Below are positions 4,059 through 47,597 of a stretch of DNA of 64,000 bases, in pieces; the first letter of the stretch is position 1, and each line of letters begins with the position of its first letter. The position numbers and the translations under genes were made by a program. Under the pieces are notes generated by a model. The model saw nothing but the letters and a program-made list of their open reading frames with translations. It had not been told where the DNA came from and did not search any database. Origin of the DNA: Dehalococcoidia bacterium (lineage in GTDB: Bacteria; Chloroflexota; Dehalococcoidia; Bin125); the NCBI GenBank assembly GCA_022825855.1, contig JAJDWB010000007.1:124001-188000 (forward strand), given 5' to 3'.

Positions 4059-5615
4059 ATGTCCATGATGGGCGGCGGCGGAATGCTCGTCGAAGTCGAG
4101 GCGGAGTCTCGCCGCGTCGAGCGCGAACGGAAGCTCGCCTCAGGCGACTGGGGCTTCCGCCATGACAACCGCATCATCCGCGCGATCTGGGCGCCGGCGA
4201 CGGTCATCGTGGTGCTGCTCGGCGTCGCCACCGGCGAGATCGTCGTCTCGCTCGTCGCTGCGACCGTGCTGGTCGCCGGCTGGGCCGCCTGGACCTGGGC
4301 GCGGTACGCATTGCACCGGCTCGAGACCGACGTCGAGATCTCCCAGACCCACGCCTTCGTCGGCGAGACGCTGACGCTGAGCCTGCGGCTGGCGAACCGC
4401 AAGATCATTCCCCTCTCGGCGCTGCAGGTGCGGGTCAATCTGCCCGAGATCCTGGAGCCGTCCAACCAGGCCTTCAGCAAGCTGCACGAGTCGGCGCCGC
4501 AGGAGGGCGTGGTCGTGCGCTCGACGTCGTTGCGCTGGTACGAGCGGCTGATCTGGGACTTCCAGATTCCGCTGATCACGCGCGGGCACTTTCAACTCGC
4601 GAGGGTCGACCTCAAATCGGGCGACTTCTTCGGCGTCTACCGGCGCGAACGGACCGACGACGCCGGCCACACGCTCTGGGTCTATCCCGAAGTGCTCTCG
4701 CTGGAACGTCTGGGTCTGCCCAGGCTGCGCCCGCAGGGCGATCAGCGCGGCGGACAGCGGCTGTTCGAGGATCCGACCCGGTTGCAGACGATTCGCGACT
4801 ATCGACCGGGAGACCCGTTGAAGAAAGTCGACTGGAAGGCGACCGCGCGGCGGCAGCAGTTGCAGTCGCGCGTCTACGACCCCTCCAGCGACCTGATCGC
4901 CGTGGTCGCGCTCAACGTGTCGACCTTGCCGCACGCCTGGCAGGGCTTCTTCGGCGATATCTTCGAGCGCGCCGTCTCGGTCGCCGCCTCGCTGGCCAAC
5001 GGATACTCCGACGAGCGCGTGCCGGTCGGCCTGCTGGCCAACTGCACCTGGCCCGGCCACGACACGGCGATCCGCGTGCCGCCGTCGCGATCGCCGGGCC
5101 AGATGACGCGCATCCTCGAAGCGCTGGCCATGGCCGATGTCTTCACCCTGGTGCGAATCGAGCGGATGCTGAGCGAAGAGCGGCTCACCTACGGCTCGAC
5201 CCTCGCCCTGGTCACGGCGGTGCTGACGCCGGCGCTCGAATCCTCGCTGCTGCAGATCAAGCGGCACGGCGCGCAGATCGGCCTGATCTACGTCGGCATC
5301 GAGGATCCCCCGGCGACCTTCGCCGATTCTCCCGTCTACGACATCCGCGCCGCGCTGGAGGGGCTGCACTTCGAGCGGGTCGGCGAGGGAGGTCCGTGGG
5401 CTCGGACCGACCGGCTCTACGCCAGCCGGCGTCCGCCCGAACCGTCCGAGGAGGTCGAACTGCCTACGTTCGTCAGCGCCGACGGCGACGCGGTCGATTC
5501 GCCCGGAGCAATCGAGGATCCGACGCCGGTCGTTGCTGCCGCGCCGTCTCCGCGTCCCGCCGCGGCACCCGAGAGCCCCTGGTCTCGCCCTCCTGAAGCG
5601 GATCGCCGGCGATGA
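4059..5615 (+). CDS. DUF58 domain-containing membrane protein
   Basis: 518 residues. Two predicted membrane helices at about residues 45-90 are followed by an extracytoplasmic beta-rich segment and the DUF58 core. The signature is IRDYRPGDPLKKVDWKATAR, after which comes a VWA-like region. The last 60 residues are a low-complexity Pro/Glu/Ala tail. A GAGGGAG ribosome site precedes the ATG at 4059; a second ATG at 4065 is possible. The stop overlaps the next start by 4 bp (ATGA), so translation is coupled. DUF58 proteins work with MoxR ATPases; the exact role is unknown. Confidence 0.9.
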   Translation: MSMMGGGGMLVEVEAESRRVERERKLASGDWGFRHDNRIIRAIWAPATVIVVLLGVATGEIVVSLVAATVLVAGWAAWTWARYALHRLETDVEISQTHAFVGETLTLSLRLANRKIIPLSALQVRVNLPEILEPSNQAFSKLHESAPQEGVVVRSTSLRWYERLIWDFQIPLITRGHFQLARVDLKSGDFFGVYRRERTDDAGHTLWVYPEVLSLERLGLPRLRPQGDQRGGQRLFEDPTRLQTIRDYRPGDPLKKVDWKATARRQQLQSRVYDPSSDLIAVVALNVSTLPHAWQGFFGDIFERAVSVAASLANGYSDERVPVGLLANCTWPGHDTAIRVPPSRSPGQMTRILEALAMADVFTLVRIERMLSEERLTYGSTLALVTAVLTPALESSLLQIKRHGAQIGLIYVGIEDPPATFADSPVYDIRAALEGLHFERVGEGGPWARTDRLYASRRPPEPSEEVELPTFVSADGDAVDSPGAIEDPTPVVAAAPSPRPAAAPESPWSRPPEADRRR

Positions 5616-7069
5616 GCGCGGCCGTCACCGCCCTGACCGCACCGGGTTCGTCCCGCCGGATCGACCGCGCCTACACGGCCTCGCTGTTGCTCGGCGAGAT
5701 CGTGATGCTGATCATCCTGGCCAAGCTGATCCCGCGGGTCGTCGCCTACGACGCCGGGGAGACGCTTTCGGTCTGGGCCGTGGCCGGGACGGTGCTGCTC
5801 GGCTTCGGCGTGTCGCGCTGGCTGGGCAACCGCGAGCTGTCGACCGCGCGCAGATTCTGGTACGGCTTGCTGATCACGCTGGTCGCGCTGCAGATCATCG
5901 GCTCGGCCGACCTCTCCGAGAGCGCGCGCATCTGGAACATGTCCTGGGTGCTCGAACTGGGCCGCCCGTCGAGCCCGGTCTGGCGCGAGGCGGTCCTGCT
6001 GGCCGACGGCAGCAGCGTGCCCGGCGAGATCGATCAACTCTTCGCCGCGCTGATGCTGATCCCGATCTGGTTCCGCGGCGTCTCGCTGGGCTCCGCCGAC
6101 CTGACCGATCGCTCCTTCGCCAACTACGCGGTCTACGGGTTGATCATGATCGCCTTCGCGCTGGCCCTGGCCGACAACGGTAACGTGGTCGACCACGTCC
6201 GCGGTCTCGGCATCCTCTGGGTGGTGGTCGGGCTGTTGACGGTCGTGCTCAAGAACGCGTCCAACACCGACCAGGTCGAAGGACTGGGCGCGGTGCAGAC
6301 CGGCGCGTCGGTCGCGGCGACGATGGTCGCGCTGGTGGTCGGCGTCGCGCTGTTTCTGTTGATCGTGACCGGCGTTGTTGCTGCGATCGCCGGTACCGGC
6401 GTGGTCGAGCCTGTGCTGGATGCGATCGGAGTCGTGATCCGGGGCATCATCACCGTCGTCTCTTACATCCTTTGGCCGTTCTTCTGGGTCTTCCAGCAGA
6501 TCCGCGACGCGATCGGGACGCAAGAGCAGGAAGTCTTCGAACGGCTGGGAGAAGGCCTGGGTCGGCCAGTCGAAATGGCGGGTGCGGAAGCCGGCGAGGC
6601 CGATCCGACGGCGGGCATCGTGCTCTCACGCGTCTTCGGCGGTATCGCCGCCGTGCTCGTCTTCGCGGTCGCGGCCTTCTACCTCTTCCGGCGCTTCGTC
6701 AACCGCGAGACGCGCACCGAGGAGTTGCGCGAGTCGCTCTGGTCGGAGGCCAATCTGCTCGACGACCTGTTCGGCGGGTTGCGCGGCCTCGGCTCGCGCT
6801 TCCGCCGTGGATCGGAGGCAAGCGCGCCCGACGCGCCGATCGCCGAGCTCTACTACGAAGTCCTCGAACACGCCCAAGGCAAGGGCCAGGTGCGGGCCGT
6901 GCATCGCACGCCGCTGCAGTTCGCCGATGCGCTCGAACGCGCCTATCACAGCCCCACGCCGAAGCGCATCTCGGAGGCGTTCAGCACGTTCCGCTACGGC
7001 GGACACCAGCCCAACCGGGCCGAGATGAACTCGATGCGCCAGAGCTGGGACGCGCTCAAGGACAACTGA
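5612..7069 (+). CDS. Polytopic membrane protein with C-terminal DUF4129 domain
   Basis: 485 residues. Several hydrophobic helices occupy residues 15-360, with one more near 335-350. The cytosolic C-terminal 90 residues (from about YYEVLEHAQGKG to the end) match the DUF4129 pattern usually found at the C-terminus of transglutaminase-like membrane proteins. No Cys-His-Asp transglutaminase core is present, so this is the stripped version of that architecture. It is translationally coupled to the DUF58 gene. Likely a membrane assembly or envelope function with the MoxR-DUF58 partner. Confidence 0.75.
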   Translation: MSAAVTALTAPGSSRRIDRAYTASLLLGEIVMLIILAKLIPRVVAYDAGETLSVWAVAGTVLLGFGVSRWLGNRELSTARRFWYGLLITLVALQIIGSADLSESARIWNMSWVLELGRPSSPVWREAVLLADGSSVPGEIDQLFAALMLIPIWFRGVSLGSADLTDRSFANYAVYGLIMIAFALALADNGNVVDHVRGLGILWVVVGLLTVVLKNASNTDQVEGLGAVQTGASVAATMVALVVGVALFLLIVTGVVAAIAGTGVVEPVLDAIGVVIRGIITVVSYILWPFFWVFQQIRDAIGTQEQEVFERLGEGLGRPVEMAGAEAGEADPTAGIVLSRVFGGIAAVLVFAVAAFYLFRRFVNRETRTEELRESLWSEANLLDDLFGGLRGLGSRFRRGSEASAPDAPIAELYYEVLEHAQGKGQVRAVHRTPLQFADALERAYHSPTPKRISEAFSTFRYGGHQPNRAEMNSMRQSWDALKDN

Positions 7070-7962: not shown

Positions 7963-8766
7963 GTGAGCCAACTGGACGGCAAGATCGCGTTGATCACCGG
8001 AGCGGCCTCGGGCATCGGCCTGGCGGCGGCGCAACTGTTCGCCGGCGAAGGCGCGCAGGTAGCGATGTTCGATCGCAATGCCGACCTGGTCAACGAGACA
8101 GCTCGTGAGATCGGATCGAGCGCGCTCGCGATCAGCGGCGACGTGACCAGCGAGGCGGATGTGGCGAACGCGGTCGCCGGCTGTGTCGAGCGCTTCGGCC
8201 GGCTTGACATCGGCTTCAACAACGCCGGCATCGCCGGCGCGGCGGCGATTCACGAGCAGGAACTCGGGCACTTCCAGCACGTGGTCGATGTCTGCCTGAC
8301 CGGCGTCTTTCTCTGCCTCAAGCACCAGTCGCAACAGCTCATCGCCCAGGGTCAGGGCGGCTCCTTGATCAATACGGCCAGCATCAACGCCACCCAGGCG
8401 ACCAAGGGATTGAGCGCCTACTGCTCGGCCAAGGCCGGCGTGGCGATGCTGACCAAAGTCGCCGCGCTGGAACTGGGCGAGCACGGGATTCGCGTCAACG
8501 CGATCGGTCCCGGGCACACGAGAACGCCGATGACCAGCCGAGCCCGCGAGGTCGACGGATTCGACGAGGCGATGATCGGCGCGACGCCGCTGGGCCGCCT
8601 CGGCGAGCCTGAGGACATCGCCCAGATGGCCCTCTATCTGGCCGGCGACGCCAGCCCCTGGGTGTCGGGTCAGCTCCTCTACGTCGACGGCGGGATCACC
8701 GTCAACGAGTTGCCGCCCGGCTTCAATCCGCTGGAGTCCCGCCTCAGGCAACCGCGCGACGATTGA
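7963..8766 (+). CDS. SDR-family oxidoreductase (pair A, copy 1)
   Basis: 267 residues, GTG start preceded by AAGGGAG. The Rossmann nucleotide motif TGAASGIG is at residues 12-19 and the catalytic Tyr-X3-Lys (YCSAK) at residues 153-157. NNAG and the DV before it are also present. A classical FabG/BacC-like dehydrogenase of 250-270 residues, NAD(P)-dependent, cytosolic, substrate unknown. It is followed by a close paralogue starting 71 bp downstream (8838). Both keep an Asp after the second strand, so NAD(H) preference is plausible but not proven. Confidence 0.92.
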   Translation: MSQLDGKIALITGAASGIGLAAAQLFAGEGAQVAMFDRNADLVNETAREIGSSALAISGDVTSEADVANAVAGCVERFGRLDIGFNNAGIAGAAAIHEQELGHFQHVVDVCLTGVFLCLKHQSQQLIAQGQGGSLINTASINATQATKGLSAYCSAKAGVAMLTKVAALELGEHGIRVNAIGPGHTRTPMTSRAREVDGFDEAMIGATPLGRLGEPEDIAQMALYLAGDASPWVSGQLLYVDGGITVNELPPGFNPLESRLRQPRDD

Positions 8767-8837
8767 CGAACGCCGGCCGCCGACTAGCCTGCCGGTGGCG
8801 GAAACGGACCGACACTGGAGCACAGGAGGCAGTGAAC

Positions 8838-9626
8838 ATGGGACTGCTGGACGGCAAGGCGGCGCTGATCACCGGCGCTGCTTCGGGAATCGGACTGGCG
8901 GCGGCGAAGCGATTCGCCGAGGAAGGCGCGCAGGTCGCCATCGCCGACCGCAACGCGGACGGCGCGGCCGAGGCGGCGCGCGAGATTGGCTCGCAGGCCG
9001 TCGCGATCGCGGCCGACGTGACCAACGAGGACGATGTCGCGAACATGGTTATGTCCTGCGTGGACCGCTTCGGCCGGCTGGACGTCGCCTTCAACAACGC
9101 CGGGATCGGCGGATTCTCGCCGATCCAGGACTATCCGCTGCAGCAGTTCCAGCAGGTGATCGACGTCTGTCTGACCGGCGTCTTCCTCTGCATCAAGCAC
9201 GAGGCCAAGCACCTGATCGAACAGGGCTCGGGCGGCTCGATCATCAACACCGCTTCGCTCAACAGCATCCAGGCGACCGAAGGACTCTCCGCCTACTGCT
9301 CGGCCAAGGCCGGCGTGGCGATGCTGACCAAGGTGTCGGCGCTGGAACTGGGACGCCACGACATCCGCGTCAACAGCATCGGCCCCGGCCTGATCCGGAC
9401 GCCCTTGACGCAAGGGCTGCGCGACGTGCCCGAGCTGGAGCAGGCGTTCGCGCATGAGGCGCCGCTGGGCCGGATCGGCGAGCCCGAGGATGTCGCCCAG
9501 CTCGCGCTCTGGCTGGCCTCCGACGCGTCCTCGCTGATGACCGGTCAGACCGTCCAGCTCAACGGCGGGGCCGACATCAACAAGTACCCGCCGCTGTTCG
9601 AGTTCTTCGGCCAGCAGGCGTTGTAG
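8838..9626 (+). CDS. SDR-family oxidoreductase (pair A, copy 2)
   Basis: 262 residues from the ATG at 8838, chosen because an AGGAGG ribosome site lies 9 bases upstream and the N-terminus then aligns with the preceding SDR. Motifs TGAASGIG (residues 12-19), NNAG and YCSAK are in the same positions as in copy 1. The two proteins are similar throughout, including the FNNAGI and LSAYCSAKAGVAMLTK stretches, so this is a tandem duplication. Function is a dehydrogenase/reductase of unknown substrate. Confidence 0.92.
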   Translation: MGLLDGKAALITGAASGIGLAAAKRFAEEGAQVAIADRNADGAAEAAREIGSQAVAIAADVTNEDDVANMVMSCVDRFGRLDVAFNNAGIGGFSPIQDYPLQQFQQVIDVCLTGVFLCIKHEAKHLIEQGSGGSIINTASLNSIQATEGLSAYCSAKAGVAMLTKVSALELGRHDIRVNSIGPGLIRTPLTQGLRDVPELEQAFAHEAPLGRIGEPEDVAQLALWLASDASSLMTGQTVQLNGGADINKYPPLFEFFGQQAL

Positions 9627-9687
9627 TCCCTAGACTTCCAGCCGACTGCACGGCTTCAACCCTCCGGGGCACAGTCAGGAGGCGACC

Positions 9688-10584
9688 ATGCGCGAGTTTG
9701 CAGGCAGAACGGCGGTCGTGACCGGAGCGGCCAGCGGCATGGGACTGGCCTTCGCTCGGCGCTTCGCGGCCGAGGGCATGAACGTTGTCCTCGCCGACAT
9801 CGAAGCGGAAGCGCTCAACGCCCAGGTCACCAGACTGGTCCAGGAAGAGCGTCGCGTCCTCGGCGTGGTGGTCGACACCATGCGCAAGGAAGCTCTGGTC
9901 GATCTGCGCGATCGGACGATCGCCGAGTACGGCAACATCCACATCCTCGTCAACAACGCCGGCGTCGCCGGTGGCGAGGACGCGGGCGTCTTCCCCGACG
10001 GCCGAGTCCAGGGGACCTGGCAGGTCTCGGACCAGACCTGGAACTGGGTCATGGGCGTCAACTTCTGGGGTGTGCTCTACGGCCTCCAGGTCTTCGTGCC
10101 GCACATGCTGGATCACGGCGAGGAGGGTCACATCGTCAACACCGCCTCGCTCGCCGGGCTGATGCCCGGCGGCGGGGCCTACAGCGTCTCCAAGCACGCC
10201 GTGTTGACGATGACCGAGGGTCTCTACCAGCAGTTCCAGGCAATGGGCGCCAACCTCAGCGCGTCGGTGCTCTGCCCCGGCTTCGTCAACACCAACATCG
10301 CCCACGCCGACCGCAACCGCCCGGAGGAATTCGGCGGCACAACTGAGCGATCAGCCGAGCAGGAACAGGCGATCGCATTCCTGCTCGGCGGCGGCATGGA
10401 CCCCGACCAGGTCGCCGACATCGTCTTCGACTCGATCGTCGAGCAACGCTGCTACATCCTGCCGCATCCCGCCTGGGACGACGTCGTGCGCGGCCGGGTC
10501 GAGCACGTCCTCGCCCGCGAGGCGCCGATCTCGGTCGACATGGAGGAGATGCTGCGCCGGCGCGCAGCCGGCCAGGACGTCTGA
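9688..10584 (+). CDS. SDR-family oxidoreductase (pair B, copy 1)
   Basis: 298 residues, ATG preceded by AGGAGG. TGAASGMG at residues 12-19, LVNNAGV, and the catalytic YSVSK motif. Longer than the pair A proteins, with a C-terminal extension carrying repeated Glu/Arg residues. This SDR subfamily (often labelled SDR family NAD(P)-dependent oxidoreductase, CAAD-like) commonly occurs beside CoA transferases and acyl-CoA dehydrogenases. Substrate unknown. A close paralogue starts 30 bp after its stop codon. Confidence 0.92.
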   Translation: MREFAGRTAVVTGAASGMGLAFARRFAAEGMNVVLADIEAEALNAQVTRLVQEERRVLGVVVDTMRKEALVDLRDRTIAEYGNIHILVNNAGVAGGEDAGVFPDGRVQGTWQVSDQTWNWVMGVNFWGVLYGLQVFVPHMLDHGEEGHIVNTASLAGLMPGGGAYSVSKHAVLTMTEGLYQQFQAMGANLSASVLCPGFVNTNIAHADRNRPEEFGGTTERSAEQEQAIAFLLGGGMDPDQVADIVFDSIVEQRCYILPHPAWDDVVRGRVEHVLAREAPISVDMEEMLRRRAAGQDV

Positions 10585-10613
10585 GCAACACCGCATCACC
10601 AGAGGATTGAATC

Positions 10614-11510
10614 ATGCGCGACTTCGCAGGCAAGACAGCCGTCGTCACCGGAGCAGCCAGCGGGATGGGTTATGCCTTCGCCGAGCGCTTCGCCGCCGAG
10701 GGCATGAACGTGATCCTCGCCGACATCGAGACGGACGCCCTCCAAGCGGCCGTGACGCGGCTGGAACAGCAGGAGCGCAACGTCGTCGGCGTCGAAGTCA
10801 ACACGATGCAGCGCGAAACGCTGGAACGCGTCCGCGACCAGGCGATCGAGCGCTACGGCAAGATCCACGTGCTCTGCAACAACGCCGGGGTCACCTCGCG
10901 CCGTGACGGCGGGTTGGGCGCAGGCACGGGCGCCGTGCCGGTCTGGGAGGTCCCGGACTCGACCTGGGACTGGGTCATGGGCGTCAACTTCTGGGGCGTG
11001 CTCTACGGCCTGCAGGTCTTCGTCCCCGCGATGATCGAGCACGGCGAGGACGGCCACATCGTCAATACCGCCTCGGTCGCCGGACTGATCCCCGGCGCCT
11101 CCGCCTACAGCGTCTCCAAGCACGGCGTACTGACCCTGACCGAGGGTCTCTGGCACCACCTGCGGGCGGCCGAGTCCAACATCTCCGCCTCCGTCCTCTG
11201 CCCCGGATTCGTCAACACGCAGATCAATGAAGCCGAGCGCAACCGCCCCAGCGAGTTCGGACAGTCGATTGAAGCGAACGAGGCCCAGCGCATGGCCTCT
11301 CAAGTCTTCCTCGGCGGCGGCATGGAACCCTCCGACGTCGCCGAACTGGTCTGGCAGGCGATGGTCGACGACCACCTCTACATCCTGCCCCACGACGGCT
11401 GGCGGGACATCATCCAGGGCCGGATCGAAGCCGTGCTCGAGGGCCAGCGTCCGGTCGAGGTCGATTTCCAGCAGATGATGGAGCGCCGCGCCGGCGGCGC
11501 AGACGTCTAG
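10614..11510 (+). CDS. SDR-family oxidoreductase (pair B, copy 2)
   Basis: 298 residues, the same length as the preceding SDR and aligned with it end to end. Both share the stretch WVMGVNFWGVLYGLQVFVP, the TGAASGMG motif and YSVSKHG. AGAGG precedes the ATG. This is the second tandem duplication in the block; the four SDRs thus form two pairs. Enzyme of unknown substrate, probably in a degradation pathway with the CoA-handling enzymes downstream. Confidence 0.92.
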   Translation: MRDFAGKTAVVTGAASGMGYAFAERFAAEGMNVILADIETDALQAAVTRLEQQERNVVGVEVNTMQRETLERVRDQAIERYGKIHVLCNNAGVTSRRDGGLGAGTGAVPVWEVPDSTWDWVMGVNFWGVLYGLQVFVPAMIEHGEDGHIVNTASVAGLIPGASAYSVSKHGVLTLTEGLWHHLRAAESNISASVLCPGFVNTQINEAERNRPSEFGQSIEANEAQRMASQVFLGGGMEPSDVAELVWQAMVDDHLYILPHDGWRDIIQGRIEAVLEGQRPVEVDFQQMMERRAGGADV

Positions 11511-21625: not shown

Positions 21626-22078
21626 CTACGAGCCCAGCAGTTCGCCCACCACTGCGTTGACCAACGAACCATCCGCCTCGCCGCGCAGTTCTCGCATCAA
21701 CATCCCCATCACCTTGCCGCGATCGCCGGGGCCGGACGCCCCCACCTGCTCAATCACCGCCCGCGCCCTGGCCTCGATCTCGTCTCGAGAGAGCTGAGCG
21801 GGCAGGTAGTGTTCGATGATGCCGATCTCCAGCTCTTCCTGCTCGGCCAGATCCTCGCGTCCGCCCTGACGGAACTGCTCAATCGACTCGCGCCGCTGCT
21901 TGACCTGACGTTGCAGGATTGCCAGGATGTCCGCCTCGGCGAGTTCCTGTCCGCGCTTGTCGATTTCGGCGTTCTTGATCGCCGCCTCGAGCATGCGGAT
22001 GGTGCTGCGGCGCGGGACATCCCGCGCCCGCATGGCATCGCGCAAATCCGACCGAAGCTGGTCTCGAACGCCAGTCAT
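21626..22078 (-). CDS. GatB/YqeY-domain protein
   Basis: 150 residues, the normal length of stand-alone YqeY. The protein starts MTGVRDQLRSDLRDAMRARD, and KQRRESIEQFRQGGREDLAEQEE is the family signature, followed by the small C-terminal helical domain (GDRGKVMGMLMRELRGEADG). The domain is related to the tRNA-binding tail of amidotransferase GatB; the role of the stand-alone form is unclear. Usually near rpsU, which is not seen here. Confidence 0.9.
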   Translation of the reverse strand: MTGVRDQLRSDLRDAMRARDVPRRSTIRMLEAAIKNAEIDKRGQELAEADILAILQRQVKQRRESIEQFRQGGREDLAEQEELEIGIIEHYLPAQLSRDEIEARARAVIEQVGASGPGDRGKVMGMLMRELRGEADGSLVNAVVGELLGS

Positions 22079-22153: not shown

Positions 22154-22297
22154 CTAGTCAGCCGAAGGGAGCACCTTGGGCTGCATCAGTTCCATTTCCC
22201 GCTCGTCGACCTTGAGGTCGCACTCGCCCGGCTTGATGCAGAGCACCTCAATGCCCGACTCTTCGTCTCGGTATCGCTTGCCCAGTTGGACGGCCAT
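22154..22297 (-). CDS. Small 47-residue protein, cysteine-poor paralogue of the next gene
   Basis: Begins MAVQLGKRY and ends PKVLPSAD. The ATG at 22297 follows a GGGGAGATACGAAG stretch that serves as a ribosome site. It aligns without gaps to the 40-residue zinc-ribbon-like protein encoded just upstream (22383-22505): GKRY, then G and E, then G and LK coincide. The CPSC positions of the partner are D-E-E-S here and the third Cys is Val, so the metal site is gone, though two unrelated Cys are present. Function unknown. Confidence 0.7.
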   Translation of the reverse strand: MAVQLGKRYRDEESGIEVLCIKPGECDLKVDEREMELMQPKVLPSAD

Positions 22298-22382
22298 CTT
22301 CGTATCTCCCCGATTCGCTCTGATTGGAACCCTGACCGACGACGTGATCCGTATCGCTGCGTCGGTTGTCCCGAACGCAGCG

Positions 22383-22505
22383 CTACTTCTTTTCCTCGAG
22401 TGGTGTATCGCCGCACTTGAGTTCCGCGTCGCCGCCGCGCGTGACGATGAACTCCGCGCCGCAACTCGGACAGAAGTAACGCTTCCCGGTCTGTGCTGCT
22501 GCCAT
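22383..22505 (-). CDS. Tiny zinc-ribbon/desulforedoxin-like protein (40 residues)
   Basis: Begins MAAAQTGKRYFCPSCGAEF. Cys 12, Cys 15 (CPSC knuckle) and Cys 31 (KCG) resemble half of a desulforedoxin/rubredoxin-type metal site; a fourth Cys is not visible. A GGGAGAGAG ribosome site lies just before the ATG, and the stop is TAG at 22383. Too short for usual gene finders but convincing because of the ribosome site, the knuckle and the paralogue 85 bp downstream. Probably a small iron or zinc protein. Confidence 0.72.
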   Translation of the reverse strand: MAAAQTGKRYFCPSCGAEFIVTRGGDAELKCGDTPLEEKK

Positions 22506-22638
22506 CTAGCTCTCTCCCTTCCCCGCGGGTGTTCCGGCAGGGAAACCATAACGCTGAAGCTGGAATGGCACTCAGCGTACCAATGACGATCGATTCGTTC
22601 AGCGCCGCCTGCGCCCGACGCCGCATTCGGGCATCAAG

Positions 22639-23640
22639 TTATGACGACCCGCTGTGCGCGCTCAGCCAGCCGACCAGGTCTGCGGAGACCTGGCCGCAGG
22701 TATCCGCCGTGACCTGGGTTGCCGGCACCGGGATCGGCAAGCCGGCGGCGAATCGCTCTTCGGCCGTATCCAGGTCACTGACCGCGGCCTGGTAGTCGCT
22801 GACCACCTTGAGCCAGGCGCGGTTGGTGGCGACTTCCTGTTGTACGGCGGTGGCAGCGTCGAGCGCGGCCCGCGTGTCGCCAACCGCTGCGGAGTCATCC
22901 GACGTCCTCAGCGTCACCACGGCCAGTACGAGGGCCGTGTAGCCCTTCTCGTAGGCGGCCAGGGCGTCTTGCGCTTCCTGCAACCCCTCACCCGACTCCT
23001 CTGCGGCTGCAACGGCCTCCCGCAGGGCCAGGAGCTCGGCATCACCCGACTCGCTGCGCGCAACGGCGCCTTGGGCAGCCTCGAAATCAGCGAACCAGCC
23101 GGACGCTTCGAGCGTCTGCTTGGCCGCATTGAGCGCAATGTGCAGGTTCTCGATCGTGACCTCGTCCAGGTGGACGGCGTGCTCCACCGCCTTGTCCCAG
23201 GCGTTGCCCGCATTGGTGGTGATCAACGTGACGAGGTTGTCGATCTTGAAACCGTCGAGCGATCCGCCCTGATCGATGCTCCAGGGAGGCATCGGCGTGC
23301 CGTTTCGGCCACAGGTAATGGTGTAGCGGAAATCGTTCTGCAGGGTAGCGAGTTGTCCCTGGTTATCCGTCAGGAACGCGTAGGTGTTGTTCGGCGTGTT
23401 CAATGCCGGGCCGACCAGCGACGCATCGGACTCGGAACCGCGTCCGTCGTTGCCGTGGCACTCGCGGCAGTTATTGGCGAATGTCCATGCCGCCCGTTCG
23501 GCGTCTTTGGTCAGGATCTCCGAGCGGGCTTCCGTGCGGCGTCCGTTGTCGAACCAGGTGTAGGCGCCCAACGAGGCCACCGACAGCACCAACAGGATCA
23601 CCATGGCGAGAATCTGCTTCTCGGTGTTCTGTCCGCTCAT
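22639..23640 (-). CDS. Membrane-anchored mono-haem cytochrome c
   Basis: 333 residues. An N-terminal helix at about 9-28 anchors it, and the haem c site CRECH is at residues 58-62, with a TPMPPW Met ligand near 115. The C-terminal 170 residues are Ala/Glu-rich and helical, probably a coiled coil, unusual for a short cytochrome c. It is last in the operon small TM protein - cytochrome b - subunit IV - Rieske - cytochrome c, and so is likely the cytochrome c1/f-equivalent subunit facing outside. Confidence 0.85.
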   Translation of the reverse strand: MSGQNTEKQILAMVILLVLSVASLGAYTWFDNGRRTEARSEILTKDAERAAWTFANNCRECHGNDGRGSESDASLVGPALNTPNNTYAFLTDNQGQLATLQNDFRYTITCGRNGTPMPPWSIDQGGSLDGFKIDNLVTLITTNAGNAWDKAVEHAVHLDEVTIENLHIALNAAKQTLEASGWFADFEAAQGAVARSESGDAELLALREAVAAAEESGEGLQEAQDALAAYEKGYTALVLAVVTLRTSDDSAAVGDTRAALDAATAVQQEVATNRAWLKVVSDYQAAVSDLDTAEERFAAGLPIPVPATQVTADTCGQVSADLVGWLSAHSGSS

Positions 23641-23700: not shown

Positions 23701-24429
23701 TTACGCGTAGGGAGTAGTGCGCTGAGGATTGTCCTCACCGCCCTTTTTGATGCTTCCCGTGTTGACCGTCAACGAGCCGTCGCTGTTGACGGTGATGTCC
23801 ATTGTGTCCATGGGCCTCGGCGCCGGTCCGAAGACGCGGATCCCGCTCTTGGTGTAAGTGGAGCCGTGGCAGGGGCAGCGGAACCAGCCGGTGACTCCCT
23901 CAAAGGGGAAGCCGGCGCGCCACGGGATCGTGCATCCCAGGTGGGGACACTTCCACCACAGGGCCAGCAGACCCTCGTCGCCTTCGAGGCCGAAACCGGC
24001 GTGGGTTCCGTCGCCGGCGCGCAGGTGGGTGAGGTAGAACTTGCCGATCTGAATCGGCTCAGGATCCGCACCCGGCGCAGGGACCGACGCAGCGGCCACC
24101 GGGATGCGTCCGCCGAACCCGGTGACCCCGCGCGGCCAGAAATTGGAGAGGAACGCGCCCAGACCGCCGGTGAGGCCGAAGGTGAAGAATCCCCAGAAGG
24201 AGACCCGCAGAAGCTGCCGCCTGGTGACCTGGCCCTGGCGAGCGCGTCGCCGCTGGGCCTGGGTGACCATCGCCCGGGCGCCTTCGCCGCTCTGGACCAC
24301 TCCAGGCCGCGACTCGGAGCGCAGATGGGGCGCGCGTTGCGGCCGCGAACCGCCTGACGGCTCGGCGGCCTGGGGCAGCCGACGCTGCCTGCCGCCTTCG
24401 CCCGTTTGTTGTTCGTTGCCGTTCGCCAC
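23701..24429 (-). CDS. Rieske iron-sulfur protein of a cytochrome bc complex
   Basis: 242 residues. The [2Fe-2S] ligands lie in CPHLGC (Cys 161, His 163) and CPCHGS (Cys 185, His 188), with Cys 166 and Cys 187 placed for the disulfide. A membrane helix at about residues 73-98 (LLRVSFWGFFTFGLTGGLGAF) follows a hydrophilic, Arg-rich 70-residue N-terminus longer than in most Rieske proteins; twin-Arg-like pairs precede the helix, fitting Tat export. Carries electrons from quinol to cytochrome c. Confidence 0.95.
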   Translation of the reverse strand: MANGNEQQTGEGGRQRRLPQAAEPSGGSRPQRAPHLRSESRPGVVQSGEGARAMVTQAQRRRARQGQVTRRQLLRVSFWGFFTFGLTGGLGAFLSNFWPRGVTGFGGRIPVAAASVPAPGADPEPIQIGKFYLTHLRAGDGTHAGFGLEGDEGLLALWWKCPHLGCTIPWRAGFPFEGVTGWFRCPCHGSTYTKSGIRVFGPAPRPMDTMDITVNSDGSLTVNTGSIKKGGEDNPQRTTPYA

Positions 24430-24432
24430 CGG

Positions 24433-25332
24433 TTACTCCTCCAGCACCACGATGTCCCAGGGCGGCTTGAGGTCCTGTCCCTGGCCACGGAATGCGGTAC
24501 CGACGATCGTCGTTGTCAGGTAGACGCCGATGAAGGCCGAGAAGATGAGCAGTGCGATGTCGCGGCGGCTGTGAATCCAGCCGAGACCCTTGCAGAACAG
24601 CACGAACAGCACCGGCAGGCCAACCATCGTGGCCACCGGAATGATCTGCTGGGAGAGGAAGGAGGGGAAGTTGAGGTTCAGCAGCCACGGATCGGTGGTC
24701 GTGCCCGGAATCCCAAGCGGGATCGCCCGCCAGTCCTCGAACATCGTGAATCCGCCGATGGTGAAGCCTAAGGAATCCCAGGGAATGCCGGTGTCGAAGC
24801 CGCGCAGGTTGCGGAACCAGTCCAATCCGCCGGGCCAGGTGAAGTCGCTGTTCAGGCCCAGACCGCGAATCACGTTCTCGGTCCAGACCACGTGGAGGGA
24901 GCCGTCCCAGATGATCAGCAGGCTGGTGATGAGTGTGGCGGCGGTGAATCCGAAGACCGTCAGCCGTCCGGCGAACTTGGTCCCGAACCAGACGCCCTGA
25001 CCCTGCGTGTCCCGGTCCCAATAAGGAATCGCGGCCAGCAACACCAGTGCGATCGTGGGCACGATCACGCCGGCCCAGGCCGGCTCCATGTGCAACAGCA
25101 GTTCCTGCAGGTTGAGGAAGTACCAGGGCGCCTTGGAGGGGTTCGGCGTTGTGTCGGGGTCGGCGCGGTTCAACAGCGGCGCGTTGACCATCGCCGAGAG
25201 AACCATCAGCGCGATCGAGAAGATCAGCGCGGAGATGAACTCGATGAAGACCAGGTCAGGCCAGACCAGAACCTCGGCCTCGCGTTCGCGGCGAGGACGG
25301 GTTCGGATGGCTGCGGCGGCGCGACTAACCAT
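24433..25332 (-). CDS. Cytochrome b C-terminal half / subunit IV-like
   Basis: 299 residues with several membrane helices. The quinol-site PEWY motif appears in the b6f subunit IV form APWYFLNLQELL near residue 70. Compared with PetD (about 160 residues) it is long, with extra helices at the C-terminal end and an Arg-rich N-terminus. The gene lies 3 bp upstream of the Rieske start and 16 bp after the b6-like gene, which supplies the haem ligands. Together they make a split cytochrome b. Confidence 0.92.
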   Translation of the reverse strand: MVSRAAAAIRTRPRREREAEVLVWPDLVFIEFISALIFSIALMVLSAMVNAPLLNRADPDTTPNPSKAPWYFLNLQELLLHMEPAWAGVIVPTIALVLLAAIPYWDRDTQGQGVWFGTKFAGRLTVFGFTAATLITSLLIIWDGSLHVVWTENVIRGLGLNSDFTWPGGLDWFRNLRGFDTGIPWDSLGFTIGGFTMFEDWRAIPLGIPGTTTDPWLLNLNFPSFLSQQIIPVATMVGLPVLFVLFCKGLGWIHSRRDIALLIFSAFIGVYLTTTIVGTAFRGQGQDLKPPWDIVVLEE

Positions 25333-25348: not shown

Positions 25349-26104
25349 CTACAGCGGCCGCGCGAGGCCGCCATCGCGACGGACCCGCCAGAAATGCACG
25401 GCCATGAAGATCGAGATCACCAGGGGCAATCCAATCACGTGCAGTGTGTAGAACCGAATCAGCGCGTTCGGTCCAACGGAGAAACCACCAAGCAGGAGGA
25501 ACTTGGACTCGTCGCCCAGCACCGGTGCGGAGCCGACCATCGTCGTGCCGACGGTGATCGCCCAGAACGCGAGCTGGTCCCAGGGCAGCAAGTAGCCGGT
25601 AAAGGAGAGCAACAGCGTGAGAATGAAGAGCACGACGCCGACCACCCAGTTGAACTCGCGCGGCGGCTTGTAGGCGCCGGTGTAGAAGACGCGCATCATG
25701 TGCAGCAAGACGAGGATGATCATCGCGTGCGCCATCCAGCGGTGCATGTTGCGCAGCAACTGACCAAAGCGGACGTTGGCCTCGAGCTCCTGGATGTCCT
25801 GATAGGCGCGCTCAATCGACGGCACGTAATAGAACATCAGCAGCACGCCGGTCACGGTCAGGCCGAGGAACATGAAGAACGACAGCCCGCCTAGGCAGTA
25901 GGTGTGGGTGATCTTGACGTGAGTGCGGTGAATCCGCGTTGGGTGCAGGTGGAGGAAGACGTTCGTCGCCACGGCGAGCATCTGGTTGCGCGGCGTGTTT
26001 GGGTAGCCGGTGCGAAAGATCGACTGCCAAACGTAGTTCTTGAAGATCAGATCGTAGATCAGGTCGTTGAACGACTTGCGCGGCGCGCGCTCCAGGTTTG
26101 CCAT
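25349..26104 (-). CDS. Cytochrome b N-terminal half (b6-like)
   Basis: 251 residues. Haem b ligands are the paired His in helix two and four; [11 protein letters not shown] and [17 protein letters not shown] carry them. The [15 protein letters not shown] stretch is the classical Qo-site segment. The protein ends after helix IV, as in cytochrome b6. It starts 6 bp after the stop of a small one-helix protein and is followed by subunit IV, Rieske and cytochrome c genes. Confidence 0.95.
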
Positions 26105-39804: not shown

Positions 39805-40708
39805 GGCGGCTGCCGCGATGCGTGTGCCGTTCGAGCGCGGCGCCGGTCGGCACCGGGTCCTGTCGATGCCTTCGCAGGTGCAGGGCCATCCAGATCGCGG
39901 CGGCTCCGGTCAGGATGGCGAGCAGTTGCGGCACCGAGAGCGCTCCGGCGAGCGCCGCCTCGTCGGTGCGCAAGAGGGAGAGCAGACCTCGCACGGCCGC
40001 ATAGGCGAATACGTAGTAGGTGAATCCCCAGCCCGCGCCGACGCCCCGGCGGCGCAGCAGGAAGAGTCCGCCCAGGATCATGAAGTCCAGGATCGGTTCG
40101 TAGCCTCCGGCGACCGGATGAATTGCGACCGGTTCCTCGCCTTCGAGTCCCCTGGAGCCGCGATACCAGTCGTCAACGCCGGGCGCGCTCCAGGGGCCGT
40201 CGGTCAGCGGATGCGTGTAGCGGAAGGCCCAGGGCAGGTCGGACGCGTTGGCGAAGTGTTCTCCATTGACGAAGTCGCCGAAGCGGCCCACCGCCTGTCC
40301 GAGGATCATGCCCGGGGCGGCGACATCGAGCGCGGCCCACTTGGGGAAGTTCGGCTTGAAGAAGGTGACGTAGAGAAATCCGCCCAGCACACCGCCGATC
40401 ATCGCGCCGTAGATCGAGATGCCGCCGTCGGTGAGCGCGAAGATGTCTCCCAGCGACCCGATCTGATCGGTGTGCTCGATCACCCAGAGCAAGCGCGCGC
40501 CGATGATCCCGGAGAGCACCGAGACCACGGCGATCGACATGGCGTCGTCCTCGGAGATTCGCGCCCGACGCGCCAGCCGCACCGCAAGCCAGACGCCCGA
40601 CGCGATCCCGATCGCGGTGAACAGGCCGTGCCAGGTCAACTCGAATCCGCCCGTGTCGATCACCACCGGATTGATGTTGATGTTGATGATCCCGACCAAC
40701 TCAGGCAT
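39782..40708 (-). CDS. lgt: Prolipoprotein diacylglyceryl transferase
   Basis: 308 residues with about seven membrane helices. The Lgt signature appears as GRFGDFVNGEHF, with Asp in place of the usual Asn (GR-x-GNF). The HGLF motif near residue 28 holds the conserved His. Transfers diacylglycerol to the lipobox Cys of prelipoproteins. Basic C-terminal tail after the last helix. Overlaps resB by 8 bp. Confidence 0.93.
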   Translation of the reverse strand: MPELVGIINININPVVIDTGGFELTWHGLFTAIGIASGVWLAVRLARRARISEDDAMSIAVVSVLSGIIGARLLWVIEHTDQIGSLGDIFALTDGGISIYGAMIGGVLGGFLYVTFFKPNFPKWAALDVAAPGMILGQAVGRFGDFVNGEHFANASDLPWAFRYTHPLTDGPWSAPGVDDWYRGSRGLEGEEPVAIHPVAGGYEPILDFMILGGLFLLRRRGVGAGWGFTYYVFAYAAVRGLLSLLRTDEAALAGALSVPQLLAILTGAAAIWMALHLRRHRQDPVPTGAALERHTHRGSRRGGLGRG

Positions 40709-42881
40709 CGTCCCGCCTCCCGTCGTCCCGTTGAGCGTAGTCGCCGCCGAACATTCCGCGTCGCGGTCCGAAGCCGAAGCGGCGCTTGCGCTGCGGCTCG
40801 TCGCTCAGCAGACGCTCGAGTTCGGCGGTCATGTCGACGCCGTGTCCGGCCTGTCCGGCCAGTTGCACGCGATCCGCCGTGACCCGCGCCCAGACGCGCC
40901 GCCTGGGCGCGAAAAAGGTCGTCGACATCCCGGCGATGCCGAGTCCGATCCCGATCCAGAACGCGGTCCCGCCGGGATCGCGGCGCACGTTGAGACCGGT
41001 GAATTCGCGAGGGCCGGCGAACTGGTAGCGCAATCCGTTCTGGACGATCTCCTGACCTTCGTCCAGCTCGATCCGGCCCGCGCCGCCTCCGAGGCCGAGC
41101 ACCAGCCGCGACGGCCTGCCGACCTGACCTCCGGCAGATGTGGCATTCGTCCCGCCGACGGCGAGTTCCACGCCTTCGCCGCCCAACGCGTTGAACTGGC
41201 CCGCGGTGCGAGCCTCGCCGAAGCGCTCCAGCGCGACCAGCGCGTCGCCGTTCGAACCCGGCAGGTCCGGCGCGATCTCGAAGAAGACCGACTCCGCCCC
41301 CAGCCAGGTCAGCTCGATCGAGCCGACCGTCCGCGTCTCCCCGATCGTCAGCGATCCCTGCGCGCCAGAATCAGGCTCCGCTCCCGCGTATGTCAGGCGC
41401 AGGCCGCTTGCAAGTCGGACCGCTTCGCCGGCGGACAACTCGCCGCGATCGGTTTCACGCTGGGCCGAGTAGTAGAAGAAGCCCTCTCCCGCGGCCCCGT
41501 CGCGGAAGCCGACCCACAGGACCTCCGACTCGCTCAGCGGCAGCGCCGTCAGGCTCGCCTCGCCCTCCGACTGATCCAGCGAGATCACGCCGTCCAGCAA
41601 CGTCTCGCCCTCGAGCTCCAGAACCATGCGCGCGCCCAACGGCGGTTCCTGACCGACGCCCAACTCGGCGAACGTCATGCCCGAGGCGTCGTTGGGCGTG
41701 GGCATGACTCGATACCAGAACTCGTAGCCGTCGGCGCCCGGCGCCATGGTCAGCGCCAACGAGCGCGCGCCGTCCAGCGGGATCAAGGTGTAGCCCGCGA
41801 TCAGCGAGGTCTCTTCTTCGGGATCCGCTGCGTCGTCGGCGACCTGGTGTTGCAGCGAAATCACTTCCTCCGAGACCGCGATGCCGCCCCGCTCGACCCG
41901 GATCCGAGGGCCCACGAGCTGCTGATCGAGAAAGTGCGTCTCCGCATAGAGCAACTGGCCCGTGGCATGCTCGGTCACGCGCAGTTCGGCGCCGTGCTCC
42001 CAGTACGCCGCCTGGTGCACCCGATATCCGGCGGCGTGCACCGGTCCGTTGACCGTCACCTCGCCGCCGCCGACCTCCGATCCGCCCCGGGCGACGCGCA
42101 CGCGGCTGCGGAAATCGAGCGCCTGGCCGTCGTCGGCGAACCGCGCCACGGCATCGTCGACGACGATCTGCACCTGCGCGCGGTCGTCGCCGGGCGGGAA
42201 GAGGATGTGCGACTCGCCTTCCGCGACCCAGAACTGGTACTCCTCGCCGGCGAACTTGGTCACCAGCGTCGCGCCGAGCAGCAGCAGCAGCGCCAGGTGC
42301 GTGACGAACGTGGCCAGTTGGGCCCAGCCGAAGCGATCGGCGAACAGCGTCGTCTCGCCCTCGCCCGACTCCACTTCCTCCACCCGGTAGCGCGACGCGC
42401 GCAATCGGCCGGTCAGCCGCTCCCGCGCCGATTGCGTGTCGTCTCCGTCGTCCAGCTCTGCCGAAGCTCGGTGCCGCGCGCGATCGAAGTAGGCCGTCCC
42501 GACTCGCTTCGGCGGCCGCCGCACCGTCCGCCAGATCGGCGGCGCGCGACTGACCGTACAGACCGAGATCGCCAGCGCGACCAGGGCCACGACCGCGTAC
42601 CAGTAGGGCTGCTTGTAGAGGTTGAAGACGCCGCCCCTGGTGTCGTAGAACCAGGGGAACTCGGCCAGCACATCGGTGAACCCGCCCCAGGTCGGACGCT
42701 GCGCCTCGATGTGCAGCTCGACCTGCTCGGGGATGTCGGCCAACTGCGGCGGCACCTGGGGAATCAGGACGCCGACGGCGGAAAACAGCGCCGCCGCCAG
42801 GATCAGGCCGATCGCCCACTTGACCGAGGTCAGCCGACGCCAGATCCACCAGGCAGGGTCGGGCCACGTATCGCGCCGCAT
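40701..42881 (-). CDS. ResB/Ccs1-like cytochrome c biogenesis protein
   Basis: 726 residues. N-terminal TSVKWAIGLILAAALFSAVG helix, a second near residue 90, a third near 205, a large extracytoplasmic beta-rich domain (about 220-665) and a last helix near 680, the classic ResB layout. It delivers reduced apocytochrome and haem at the outer face. Works with a CcsA/ResC partner, which is not in the window. Plausibly serves the cytochrome c encoded at 22639. Confidence 0.9.
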   Translation of the reverse strand: MRRDTWPDPAWWIWRRLTSVKWAIGLILAAALFSAVGVLIPQVPPQLADIPEQVELHIEAQRPTWGGFTDVLAEFPWFYDTRGGVFNLYKQPYWYAVVALVALAISVCTVSRAPPIWRTVRRPPKRVGTAYFDRARHRASAELDDGDDTQSARERLTGRLRASRYRVEEVESGEGETTLFADRFGWAQLATFVTHLALLLLLGATLVTKFAGEEYQFWVAEGESHILFPPGDDRAQVQIVVDDAVARFADDGQALDFRSRVRVARGGSEVGGGEVTVNGPVHAAGYRVHQAAYWEHGAELRVTEHATGQLLYAETHFLDQQLVGPRIRVERGGIAVSEEVISLQHQVADDAADPEEETSLIAGYTLIPLDGARSLALTMAPGADGYEFWYRVMPTPNDASGMTFAELGVGQEPPLGARMVLELEGETLLDGVISLDQSEGEASLTALPLSESEVLWVGFRDGAAGEGFFYYSAQRETDRGELSAGEAVRLASGLRLTYAGAEPDSGAQGSLTIGETRTVGSIELTWLGAESVFFEIAPDLPGSNGDALVALERFGEARTAGQFNALGGEGVELAVGGTNATSAGGQVGRPSRLVLGLGGGAGRIELDEGQEIVQNGLRYQFAGPREFTGLNVRRDPGGTAFWIGIGLGIAGMSTTFFAPRRRVWARVTADRVQLAGQAGHGVDMTAELERLLSDEPQRKRRFGFGPRRGMFGGDYAQRDDGRRDDA

Positions 42882-42886
42882 GAAAC

Positions 42887-43951
42887 TCAGCGTATCGGCG
42901 GACTCTTCAATCCCGATCCGGTCAGCGGCACGAGCACGCGCTCGTCGGCGGCGAGCATGCCCCGCTCATGCAATCGCCTGAGTGCCGCCAGCGGCACCGC
43001 CGATGTGGGCTCGACGTAGAGCCCGCGCTGCAGGATCGTCCGGCGGGCGGATTCGATCTCGATCTCCGAGACGACGCCTGCCGCGCCCCTGCTCTCGCGC
43101 ACCGCCTCCAGCATCTGCGCCAGTCGGGGCGGTCGCGACACGGCAATGCCGTCGGCGATGGTCGGCTCGGGGTCGCGGGCTTCGTGATTGCGGTAGGCCG
43201 AGGCCAACGGGCTGACGTTCATCGCCTGGACTGCATAGAGGCGCGGCATCCGCTGGATGCGGTCGAGCTGGATCAATTCGCGGAAGCCTCGATAGAGACC
43301 GATCAGCAGCGATCCGTTGCCGACCGGCAGGACGATCGCGTCGGGCAGGCCGTGATCGGCGATCTCTTCGGCGACCGGTTTCATGCCTTCGCTGAAGTAC
43401 GGGCTTCGGTTGTGCGAGAGATAGGGAATGCTGCGCTCTTGGGCGTACTGCGCGGCGGCGTCCGCGACCGCCTCGCGATCTCCCTCTACGGCGTGGATGG
43501 TCCCGCCGACGGCGGTGATCTGGTCCTGCTTCACCTGCGGGGCGGCGGCGGGCACGAAGATCTCGGCCGACATCTGCGCGGCGGCGGCGTAGGCGGCCAG
43601 GGCCGCGCCGGCGTTGCCCGACGAGTCCTCGACGAACGCCGTCGCGCCGGCGCTCCATGCGGCCGAGATCAACGTGGCCGCGCCGCGGTCCTTGAACGAT
43701 CCGCTCGGCGACAGGTACTCCAGCTTGAACTGAAGCCTGAGCCGCCGCGCGTCGGGCCAGTCGAAACTGATCGTCGGCGTGCCGCCCTGGCCCAGCGGCA
43801 ACGGAGTCAGCGGCAGACGCAGGCCGCCTTCGGGCAGGCGCGGATAGGCAATCTCGAAGAGTCCGCCGCACTGGGCGCAGGAGAGATCAAGCGAAGCGCC
43901 GATTTCCAACTCGCAGTCGAGACAACGGAGGTGGTGTCGAACGGCGGGCAT
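42887..43951 (-). CDS. Threonine synthase-like PLP enzyme with zinc ribbon
   Basis: 354 residues from the ATG at 43951 (the frame extends upstream only as shadow). An N-terminal Cys4 ribbon (Cys 10, 13, 25, 28) is followed by a fold-type II core: PLP Lys 87 in SPSGSFKDRG, SSGNAGAALAAYAA, and PVGNGSLLIG. Typical of the ThrC/ThrB-linked group, but the phosphohomoserine contacts cannot be judged. A second, longer threonine synthase is at 47843. Starts 1 bp into the epoxide hydrolase stop. Confidence 0.82.
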   Translation of the reverse strand: MPAVRHHLRCLDCELEIGASLDLSCAQCGGLFEIAYPRLPEGGLRLPLTPLPLGQGGTPTISFDWPDARRLRLQFKLEYLSPSGSFKDRGAATLISAAWSAGATAFVEDSSGNAGAALAAYAAAAQMSAEIFVPAAAPQVKQDQITAVGGTIHAVEGDREAVADAAAQYAQERSIPYLSHNRSPYFSEGMKPVAEEIADHGLPDAIVLPVGNGSLLIGLYRGFRELIQLDRIQRMPRLYAVQAMNVSPLASAYRNHEARDPEPTIADGIAVSRPPRLAQMLEAVRESRGAAGVVSEIEIESARRTILQRGLYVEPTSAVPLAALRRLHERGMLAADERVLVPLTGSGLKSPPIR

Positions 43952-45153
43952 CAGGAGAAGAATCGTCTGAGGTCGGCGAGGAGCAGGTCGGGGACTTCCA
44001 TCGCCGGGAAGTGGCCGCCTTCGGGGAACTCGGTCCAGTGGACGACGTTGGATGCGCGCTCGCACCAGGAGCGGGGCGGCAACGGGGTGCCACGTTGCAG
44101 CTTGACGAAGCCGGCGGGCACATCGGAGCGCTCGCCGTCGCCCAACCGCACCCGGCCGCCGACCTCGGCCTCGACCTCCGCCGGCGGTCGCATGGCCTCG
44201 TGGTAGATGCGCATCGCCGACGACTGCGTGCGCGTGAACCAGTAGATCGCGACGGTCGCCAGCAAGTCGTCCTTGGTGAAGCGCCGGTAGAGGTCGCCGC
44301 CGCGAGGACGCTCGTCCTCACGCATGACGTCGGCGAGCAGCCACCACTTGTCCACGATCCAGGCCATCAGCCCGACCGGCGAGTCTTCGAGATGGAAGGC
44401 CATGGTCTGGAACTTGGTCCCGTGGATGCCGCGGTGCGCCGCGTCGTCGCGGATGTAGGGCTCCTGCTCCTCGGCGAAGAAGCGGCGCTCCTCTTCGTTC
44501 TGCGGCCTGGCGTCGGAACCGCCCGGCGCGAGCGCTGACGCGGTCAGGTGGATGCGGTCAATGCGTTCGGGATGGCGCAGGGCGAGTTGTCCGCCGACCG
44601 CCGCGCCCCAGTCGCCGCCGTGATAGAGGAACTCGTCGTAATCCAGGCGCGACATCAACTCGACCCACATGTCGGCAATCGCGGCCGGGCCGTAGCCCAT
44701 CCTGGCCGGGATGTCGGACCATCCGTAGCCCGGCAGCGATGGCGCGACCACATGGAACGCGGGCGCGCTCGGATCGGCCGGCTCGGCCAGTTCGTCGATG
44801 ATCTTGTAGAAGTCGTAGACCGATGACGGCCAGCCGTGCTGGATCATTAGCGGGCGCGCATCGGGCCGCGAGCTGCGCCGGTGGATGAAGTGGATGCCCA
44901 GCGACTCGCCGGTCCATCCGGTCAACGGCGTCCTGAACTGGGCAAAGTCATTGAGCAGCGACTCGACGGCGCGCCAGTCGAACCCGTCGGCCCAGTACGA
45001 AGCCAGGTCTTGCGTGAAGTCGAGATCGATGCCGTAGAGCCAGCCGGAGCCCGGGACCTCGCGCAGCCATCGGCTGTCGTGCAGGCGGCGGCGTAGGTCG
45101 TCGATCTCCGTCTCGGGAACGGAGATCCGGAACGGCTCGGTCGGCGGCGACAT
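43951..45153 (-). CDS. Epoxide hydrolase (EHN-domain alpha/beta hydrolase), copy 1
   Basis: 400 residues. The N-terminal EHN domain (FRISVPETEIDDLRRRL) precedes an alpha/beta hydrolase. HGWP is at residues 106-109 (oxyanion), the nucleophile is Asp 181 in GGDWGAAVG, and the catalytic His is in GGHF near the C-terminus. Opens epoxides to diols by an ester intermediate. It is the most divergent of three tandem copies. Confidence 0.92.
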   Translation of the reverse strand: MSPPTEPFRISVPETEIDDLRRRLHDSRWLREVPGSGWLYGIDLDFTQDLASYWADGFDWRAVESLLNDFAQFRTPLTGWTGESLGIHFIHRRSSRPDARPLMIQHGWPSSVYDFYKIIDELAEPADPSAPAFHVVAPSLPGYGWSDIPARMGYGPAAIADMWVELMSRLDYDEFLYHGGDWGAAVGGQLALRHPERIDRIHLTASALAPGGSDARPQNEEERRFFAEEQEPYIRDDAAHRGIHGTKFQTMAFHLEDSPVGLMAWIVDKWWLLADVMREDERPRGGDLYRRFTKDDLLATVAIYWFTRTQSSAMRIYHEAMRPPAEVEAEVGGRVRLGDGERSDVPAGFVKLQRGTPLPPRSWCERASNVVHWTEFPEGGHFPAMEVPDLLLADLRRFFS

Positions 45154-45157
45154 GGCC

Positions 45158-46315: not shown

Positions 46316-46381
46316 GTCGTGGTCCTCACGCTGTGGGCGAGTCTGCGGCTGAAACGATCCGCGCGCAGTATCGCACGAGCC

Positions 46382-47539: not shown

Positions 47540-47597
47540 GGCAATCCCTCCGGCAGAGGACGGATGGCAGGCACGGACAGAATCGAGGTACGACAGA

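Follow-up and report, generated by a model that had tools for sequence, protein, structure and literature searches.

A tandem pair of small desulforedoxin-type genes with a seemingly optional metal site in Dehalococcoidia

Few known metalloproteins are as small as desulforedoxin, which forms a homodimer with one Fe(Cys)4 site per chain. Among the ribosomal proteins, paralogues of L31 and L36 occur as zinc-bearing (C+) and zinc-free (C-) forms. Here, two tiny neighbouring genes, in the following called A and B, were analyzed in a window of 64,000 nucleotides (contig JAJDWB010000007.1, positions 124,001 to 188,000) from the 2.8 Mb genome of a Dehalococcoidia bacterium. The pair has its size, its model fold and a dimer-sized unit in common with the desulforedoxin of Desulfovibrio gigas (1dxg) and with the N-terminal domain of desulfoferrodoxin (PF06397), and the CxxC...CC motif of both is present in fuller relatives of A and B. 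Unlike desulforedoxin, A and B are encoded by two genes, their ligands are partly or wholly gone, they are fused in several lineages and one of the chains carries a conserved C-terminal tail. As in the C+ and C- forms of L31 and L36, one paralogue is devoid of the cysteine site and would retain the fold, but the ribosomal forms substitute for each other, whereas A and B both persist next to each other and become fused in several lineages. Other Dehalococcoidia carry single desulforedoxin-like genes (L296-L299) that share the CxxC...CC core with A and B; in the 5.7-10 kb read at these loci, neither a second gene nor a PS(A/S)D tail was found. A literature search covering the first parts of abstracts retrieved no paper on such a desulforedoxin-type pair in Chloroflexota or Dehalococcoidia, and in PMC10284905 none of the terms looked for was found. 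According to the comparisons described below, A and B are genuine genes and form an old, highly conserved system of the desulforedoxin type in which the metal would be optional; the fold is a known one and the behaviour would be new.

The minus strand of the window carries, in this order, a split cytochrome b, the Rieske protein, cytochrome c, A, B and yqeY (Table 1), the latter not having been found beside the pair in all relatives. A promoter scan found none, and a terminator scan gave no minus-strand hit in the intervals that separate cytochrome c, A and B. This absence of terminators is weak evidence that the three genes are transcribed together.

Table 1. Features of the A/B locus, with positions as counted in the window
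Feature	Position	Strand	Evidence or occurrence
Gene A, 40 aa desulforedoxin-like chain	22383..22505	-	found in 20/20 searched genomes of the order
Gene B, 47 aa paralogue, no ligands at the metal-site positions, conserved C-terminal tail	22154..22297	-	20/20 searched genomes of the order; AF2 model
B codons 39-47, tail QPKVLPSAD	22157..22183	-	Pro44, Ser45 and Asp47 invariant among 54 B proteins
AAGGGAG, likely ribosome site of A	22514..22520	-	sequence
GGGGAG, likely ribosome site of B	22306..22311	-	sequence
Cytochrome c of the bc operon, gene upstream of A	22639..23640	-	same-strand neighbour in 64/80 named loci
Rieske iron-sulfur protein, bc operon	23701..24429	-	
Cytochrome b C-terminal part, bc operon	24433..25332	-	
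Cytochrome b N-terminal part, bc operon	25349..26104	-	named by sequence and position
yqeY, gene downstream of B	21626..22078	-	PF09424, E 6.8e-50; at 56/80 named loci

A first-pass annotation of the sequence had described A and B as tandem paralogues, each with its own ribosome site, of which one has lost its metal site. This description holds: the profiles of A and B match each other and B is without ligands. The translations have the reported lengths and align without gaps from GKRY onward, with identities at 10 of 34 positions and with Cys12, Cys15 and Cys31 of A opposite Asp11, Ser14 and Val30 of B. These three cysteines are the ligands of A in the window, the fourth ancestral position being Gly32. 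Motifs resembling a ribosome site precede A in 20 and B in 17 of the 20 searched genomes of the order, which are also all those searched of the family, and the window has both. The alignment score of A and B was reached by none of 20,000 shuffles of B and, with GKRY left out, by one of 20,000. In a search within the genome the match is weak (E 0.27); the resulting doubt on the similarity is removed by the family profiles, since the profile of the B set matches that of the A set with a probability of 99.6 and an E-value of 5e-24.

A lack of homologues of B or of a bias towards synonymous substitutions had been named as grounds for dismissing the pair. Neither was observed. Homologues of B are abundant, and the proposed search of related genomes recovered both genes in all 20 genomes searched of the order. 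Substitutions are strongly synonymous in 105 genome pairs of the genus, with a mean pS of 0.44 for A and 0.40 for B, a mean pN of 0.011 for each, and a corrected dN/dS (ratio of sums) of 0.014 and 0.019, respectively. From GKRY on, B of the window is 95, 86, 76 and 88% identical to B of the genomes G010, G015, G016 and G018, for which the identity of RpoB amounts to 93, 76, 64 and 66%; B is thus conserved more than RpoB in all four comparisons. A and B are confirmed as real genes under purifying selection. The loss of all four ligands could mark B as a decaying pseudogene derived from A, an explanation with next to no probability, as it is refuted by the dN/dS of about 0.02, the presence in 20 of 20 genomes and the identity above that of RpoB. 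In phage records, no match of A was found.

Concerning the family, the comparison with desulforedoxins already drawn in the first-pass annotation was the right lead, since family profiles and predicted fold agree on it. Its designation of A as a zinc knuckle has to be corrected, the motif actually being CxxC and one Cys of an ancestral CxxC...CC site. The zinc knuckle (CCHC) pattern is CX2CX4HX4C, and this pattern is not contained in the A sequence. Three of the four ligands of CxxC...CC are found in A of the window and none in B. Desulfoferrod_N (PF06397) matches A of the window with an E-value of 0.0016 and 18.5 bits, which is under the gathering score of 23, and B has no match in the family library, Desulfoferrod_N included. 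Among the relatives, this family is matched (E up to 0.1) by 52 of the 55 A proteins and by 39 of the 54 B proteins, and weak matches to zinc-ribbon families were also obtained for many A relatives. Compared with solved structures, the profile of the 55 A proteins finds desulfoferrodoxin first (E 8.6e-05), followed by desulforedoxin (0.0039), and the profile of the 54 B proteins gives the same order (1.6e-04 and 0.001). When the single A sequence is searched against the PDB, zinc-finger proteins are on top, no stretch of the best ones passing alone, and desulfoferrodoxin appears only at E 0.43.

The AF2 model of B has a mean pLDDT of 83.8. Its six best Foldseek matches come from five entries and are all chains of desulforedoxin or of desulfoferrodoxin (superoxide reductase), with probabilities of 0.94-0.99 and E-values of 0.43-1.2 that are not significant; structural E-values are weak because the chains are tiny. 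Superposition on 1dxg resulted in a TM of 0.79 with 1.0 Å over 33 columns, and VIA gave a Z of 4.5 with 1.4 Å over 34 residues. As a stand-in for a model of the A-B heterodimer, a natural fusion, the Tepidiforma flava protein (L143), was modelled as a single chain, with a mean pLDDT of 93.2 (68 for the last ten residues) and a pTM of 0.83. Residues 56-91 of this model, which represent the B half and are the only ones covered by the match, fit 1dxg with 0.8 Å over 36 residues and a VIA Z of 3.9. The alignment used for the fused model (A6) contains fused and B rows only, so that its A half rests on 19 rows. The remaining structure matches of the fused model, among them pyruvate kinases, are mostly chance-like. 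B is best read as a desulforedoxin fold without its metal ligands, and A and B are tandem paralogues of the desulforedoxin type. The fold is seen in the predicted models of B and of the fused B half; Foldseek E-values of 0.43 and above, VIA Z values of only 3.9-4.5, the first rank of zinc-finger proteins for the single A sequence and the weak zinc-ribbon matches of many A relatives speak against it.

The search with B of the window matched 167 of 245 genomes of the class (E up to 0.01). In a first set of 111 loci read, including 80 that were fetched further, A and B occur together at 108 loci, 96 of them as an A-then-B tandem on one strand and 12 as a single fused frame. The median gap in the 96 tandems is 19.5 nt, measured to six residues before GKRY of B. 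Three loci are without A; two of these (L100, L137) start near a contig end, and the third (L122 in G026) has room, yet no A. In the genome G100, A and B are located on separate contigs (L300/L301). A named set of 80 loci, which was picked by likeness to fused proteins and overlaps the first set, contains A and B at all 80 loci, 58 split and 22 fused, and the fused form is present in the complete genome of Tepidiforma flava YIM 72310 (NZ_CP115149.1). In a search of the phylum, 32 of 301 genomes were matched (E up to 0.001); eight of the 32 do not belong to the class, and both domains are present in six of these eight. One locus titled Thermoflexus hugenholtzii JAD2 (L220) resembles group f2 in its pair and gene order, and its title may be wrong.

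The cysteines of the metal site are distributed unevenly. Within the class, every locus read has a B with CxxC in 37 of the 45 family groups, no locus read has one in seven groups (f1, f2, f30, f33, f36, f49 and f69), and in group f17 both states are found. In 40 of the 96 split pairs, CxxC...CC is complete in both chains. The fourth ligand of A agrees with the CxxC state of B in 93 of these 96 pairs: 49 combine a complete A with a CxxC-bearing B, 44 combine a bare B with an A that is missing the fourth Cys, and three are exceptions. In 45 of the 96 pairs, A has G, D, H or K instead of its fourth ligand, and one more A is without both Cys of the CC motif. One of the three exceptions is L023 of the window's own family, in which a bare B accompanies an A with the full site; the other relatives read in this family have a bare B and three ligands in A. 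The A of the window, with three Cys left, may bind metal. In group f30, three A chains (L076, L086, L090) carry C-K-H or C-H-H in place of CC, beside a bare B; a Cys3His site is possible in these chains. Two cysteines of B in the window, Cys20 and Cys26, lie outside the ligand positions and were kept or gained in the bare B, Cys20 being common to many B chains with and without ligands.

Separate and fused A differ completely in their CxxC, which is present in 96 of 96 separate chains versus none of 12 fused halves in the first set, and in 58 of 58 split versus none of 22 fused cases in the named set. Among the class fusions that were read, none carries CxxC in either half; in the A half of the f33 and f49 fusions, one or two single Cys are left. 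In another class of the same phylum, a fused protein (L291 in G286, about 5027-5677, minus strand) has a bare A half and CxxC...CC in its B half and is the mirror case of the fusions in the class.

The traits were mapped on a rapidly built rpoB tree that covers 58 genomes; the rpoB frames were picked by phmmer, 19 of 55 inner branches were drawn open (support under 80), and the labels of some genomes were taken from family mates (e.g., G159 and G107 for the bc linkage). This tree requires at least 7 changes for CxxC of B, 5 for fusion and 5 for CxxC of A. A change in CxxC of A goes with fusion in 4 of 4 independent contrasts on supported branches; sign tests resulted in p 0.125 and 0.25-0.5, the contrasts being too few for significance. 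We infer ligand loss, not gain, as the direction, on the basis of the known family and of the outgroup G280, both of whose chains have four Cys. Group f17 contains bare fused proteins beside split Cys4/Cys4 pairs (G035, G159). The fused proteins of f17, f36 and f69 have a loop that is one residue shorter and are 65-71% identical in the first 35 residues, so that one fused gene of single origin may have been transferred among these groups. The fusions of f33, f49 and L291 look separate, since linker and loop differ. COX1 was found in 31 of 32 genomes with a bare B versus 15 of 25 genomes with CxxC in B; independent contrasts did not support the idea that ligand loss goes with aerobic life, and for this reason such a link is not claimed.

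Invariant among the 54 B sequences are G6, R8, L19, P44, S45 and D47, none of which is a ligand and three of which are located in the flexible tail. The PS(A/S)D motif of this tail is conserved more than the ligands, and the tail is the lowest-confidence part of both models. Being conserved yet flexible, it suggests docking onto a partner.

A candidate for this partner comes from the neighbourhood. At the 16 named loci without an upstream cytochrome c on the same strand, less than 1.6 kb upstream are available (7 loci) or the tail is a different one (9 loci). Among the PKVLPSAD-tail loci of L062-L141, 32 of 37 have the upstream cytochrome c, and the linkage to the bc operon persists where yqeY was not found (f17, f36). 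Five PKVLPSAD pairs (L311-L315 in G178, G043, G228, G163 and G182) have no adjoining bc operon; in larger flanks, no bc neighbour was found at four of them, and G178 is cut at the contig end. At loci with other tails, a cytochrome c neighbour was found at none of 42 in the stretch fetched, the neighbours there resembling lexA, class II aldolase, ruvC and others by eye, and in many lineages the pair is located away from the bc operon. The rpoB tree requires at least 4 changes of the bc linkage, a count that includes three PKVLPSAD genomes without linkage and leaves out G178 due to the contig end. In summary, the pair usually, but not always, follows the bc operon in the clade of the window. Since no bc neighbour was found in the stretch fetched at the other-tail loci, the bc chain is a candidate partner in this clade only.

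The hetero-oligomer proposed in the first-pass annotation is probable in view of the natural fusions in several lineages and the coupled changes in both chains. An obligate pair is supported by the repeated fusion of the two genes, by losses in A as well as in B and by the coupling of the A site to the state of B. On balance, we favour A and B as an obligate heterodimer of desulforedoxin fold, in which the metal would be a dispensable brace and the function a metal-independent docking via the tail. Both ancestral chains probably carried a Cys4 metal site, and in the window's family the site of B would have been lost first. The metal would brace the very small fold and the dimer, and it could be dropped once the chain is kept stable by its partner or by covalent linkage. 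In the simplest reading, it would stabilise the tiny A chain and be replaced by the covalent link in the fusions, as CxxC is found in every separate A and lacking in all 12 fused ones of the first set. Selection would keep a metal-independent surface, above all the flexible tail of B, which would most likely dock the dimer onto a larger partner. For the window's clade, this partner may be a component of the cytochrome bc chain, which is the weakest step. The best guess is a metal-optional docking adaptor. More tentatively, and with slightly less than even confidence, the pair may be in evolutionary transit out of metal dependence, with fusion exchanged for metal several times and in either half, and with the docking function of the tail, conserved above RpoB, being kept. 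Several observations stand against our best explanation: the contrasts are too few, the tree is a quick one and the fusions of f17, f36 and f69 may have a single origin; A of the window keeps three Cys and the A halves of f33 and f49 keep single Cys; the pair lies apart from a bc operon in many lineages; B occurs without A at L122, and A and B are separated in G100.

Other functions were weighed against the docking adaptor. A small rubredoxin-like electron carrier for a respiratory or detoxifying enzyme, in which A would carry the electrons and B would dock, agrees with the 40 split pairs that have complete sites in both chains, with the Desulfoferrod_N matches of most A and B relatives and with the placement after the bc operon in the window's clade. 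The class fusions without CxxC in either half and the many A chains in which the fourth ligand is replaced or both Cys are missing speak against it and make it an unlikely alternative. Furthermore, the superoxide reductase domain (PF01880) was not found in the window's genome (E up to 1e-5) and was matched in only 3 of 58 genomes. The role of an electron donor to superoxide reductase was rejected as unlikely on these grounds, 55 of the 58 genomes being without a hit.

That the pair is an accessory subunit or assembly factor specifically of the cytochrome bc complex would explain the frequent upstream cytochrome c at the named and PKVLPSAD loci and a linkage that outlasts yqeY; it is a little less probable still than the electron carrier, given the five unlinked PKVLPSAD loci, the lack of such a neighbour in the stretch fetched at all 42 other-tail loci and the repeated changes of the linkage on the tree. 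For the sensor pair suggested in the first-pass annotation, no evidence was obtained. A metal or redox sensor, in which A reads metal via a labile Cys3 site and B transmits, could make use of the open Cys3 site of A and its metal-free partner; it is rather improbable, as fused relatives without any CxxC have been kept in several lineages and no common DNA-binding or signalling partner was noticed in the neighbourhoods read.

With the docking adaptor as the favoured reading, the system is of interest because its ligands are repeatedly gone and the gene pair is retained. The extant states comprise sites in both halves, one bare half, three ligands, no CxxC and the mirror case. As these intermediate states are alive in one phylum, a direct test of functional versus merely structural metal in such folds is now possible. 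The analysis also brings to light a strongly conserved pair of proteins that has no name, in a large and mostly uncultured group, and the claims are testable because the fused form occurs in the named strain Tepidiforma flava YIM 72310 with its complete genome.

Elsewhere in the window, three adjoining similar alpha/beta-hydrolase (epoxide-hydrolase-like) genes (43951-47683, minus strand) and four short-chain dehydrogenase-like genes in a row (7963-11510, plus strand) were noticed by eye. An open frame of 849 codons (40470-43019, plus strand) faces a ResB-like gene; long open frames on the wrong strand or in the wrong frame occur in the GC-rich DNA of the window.
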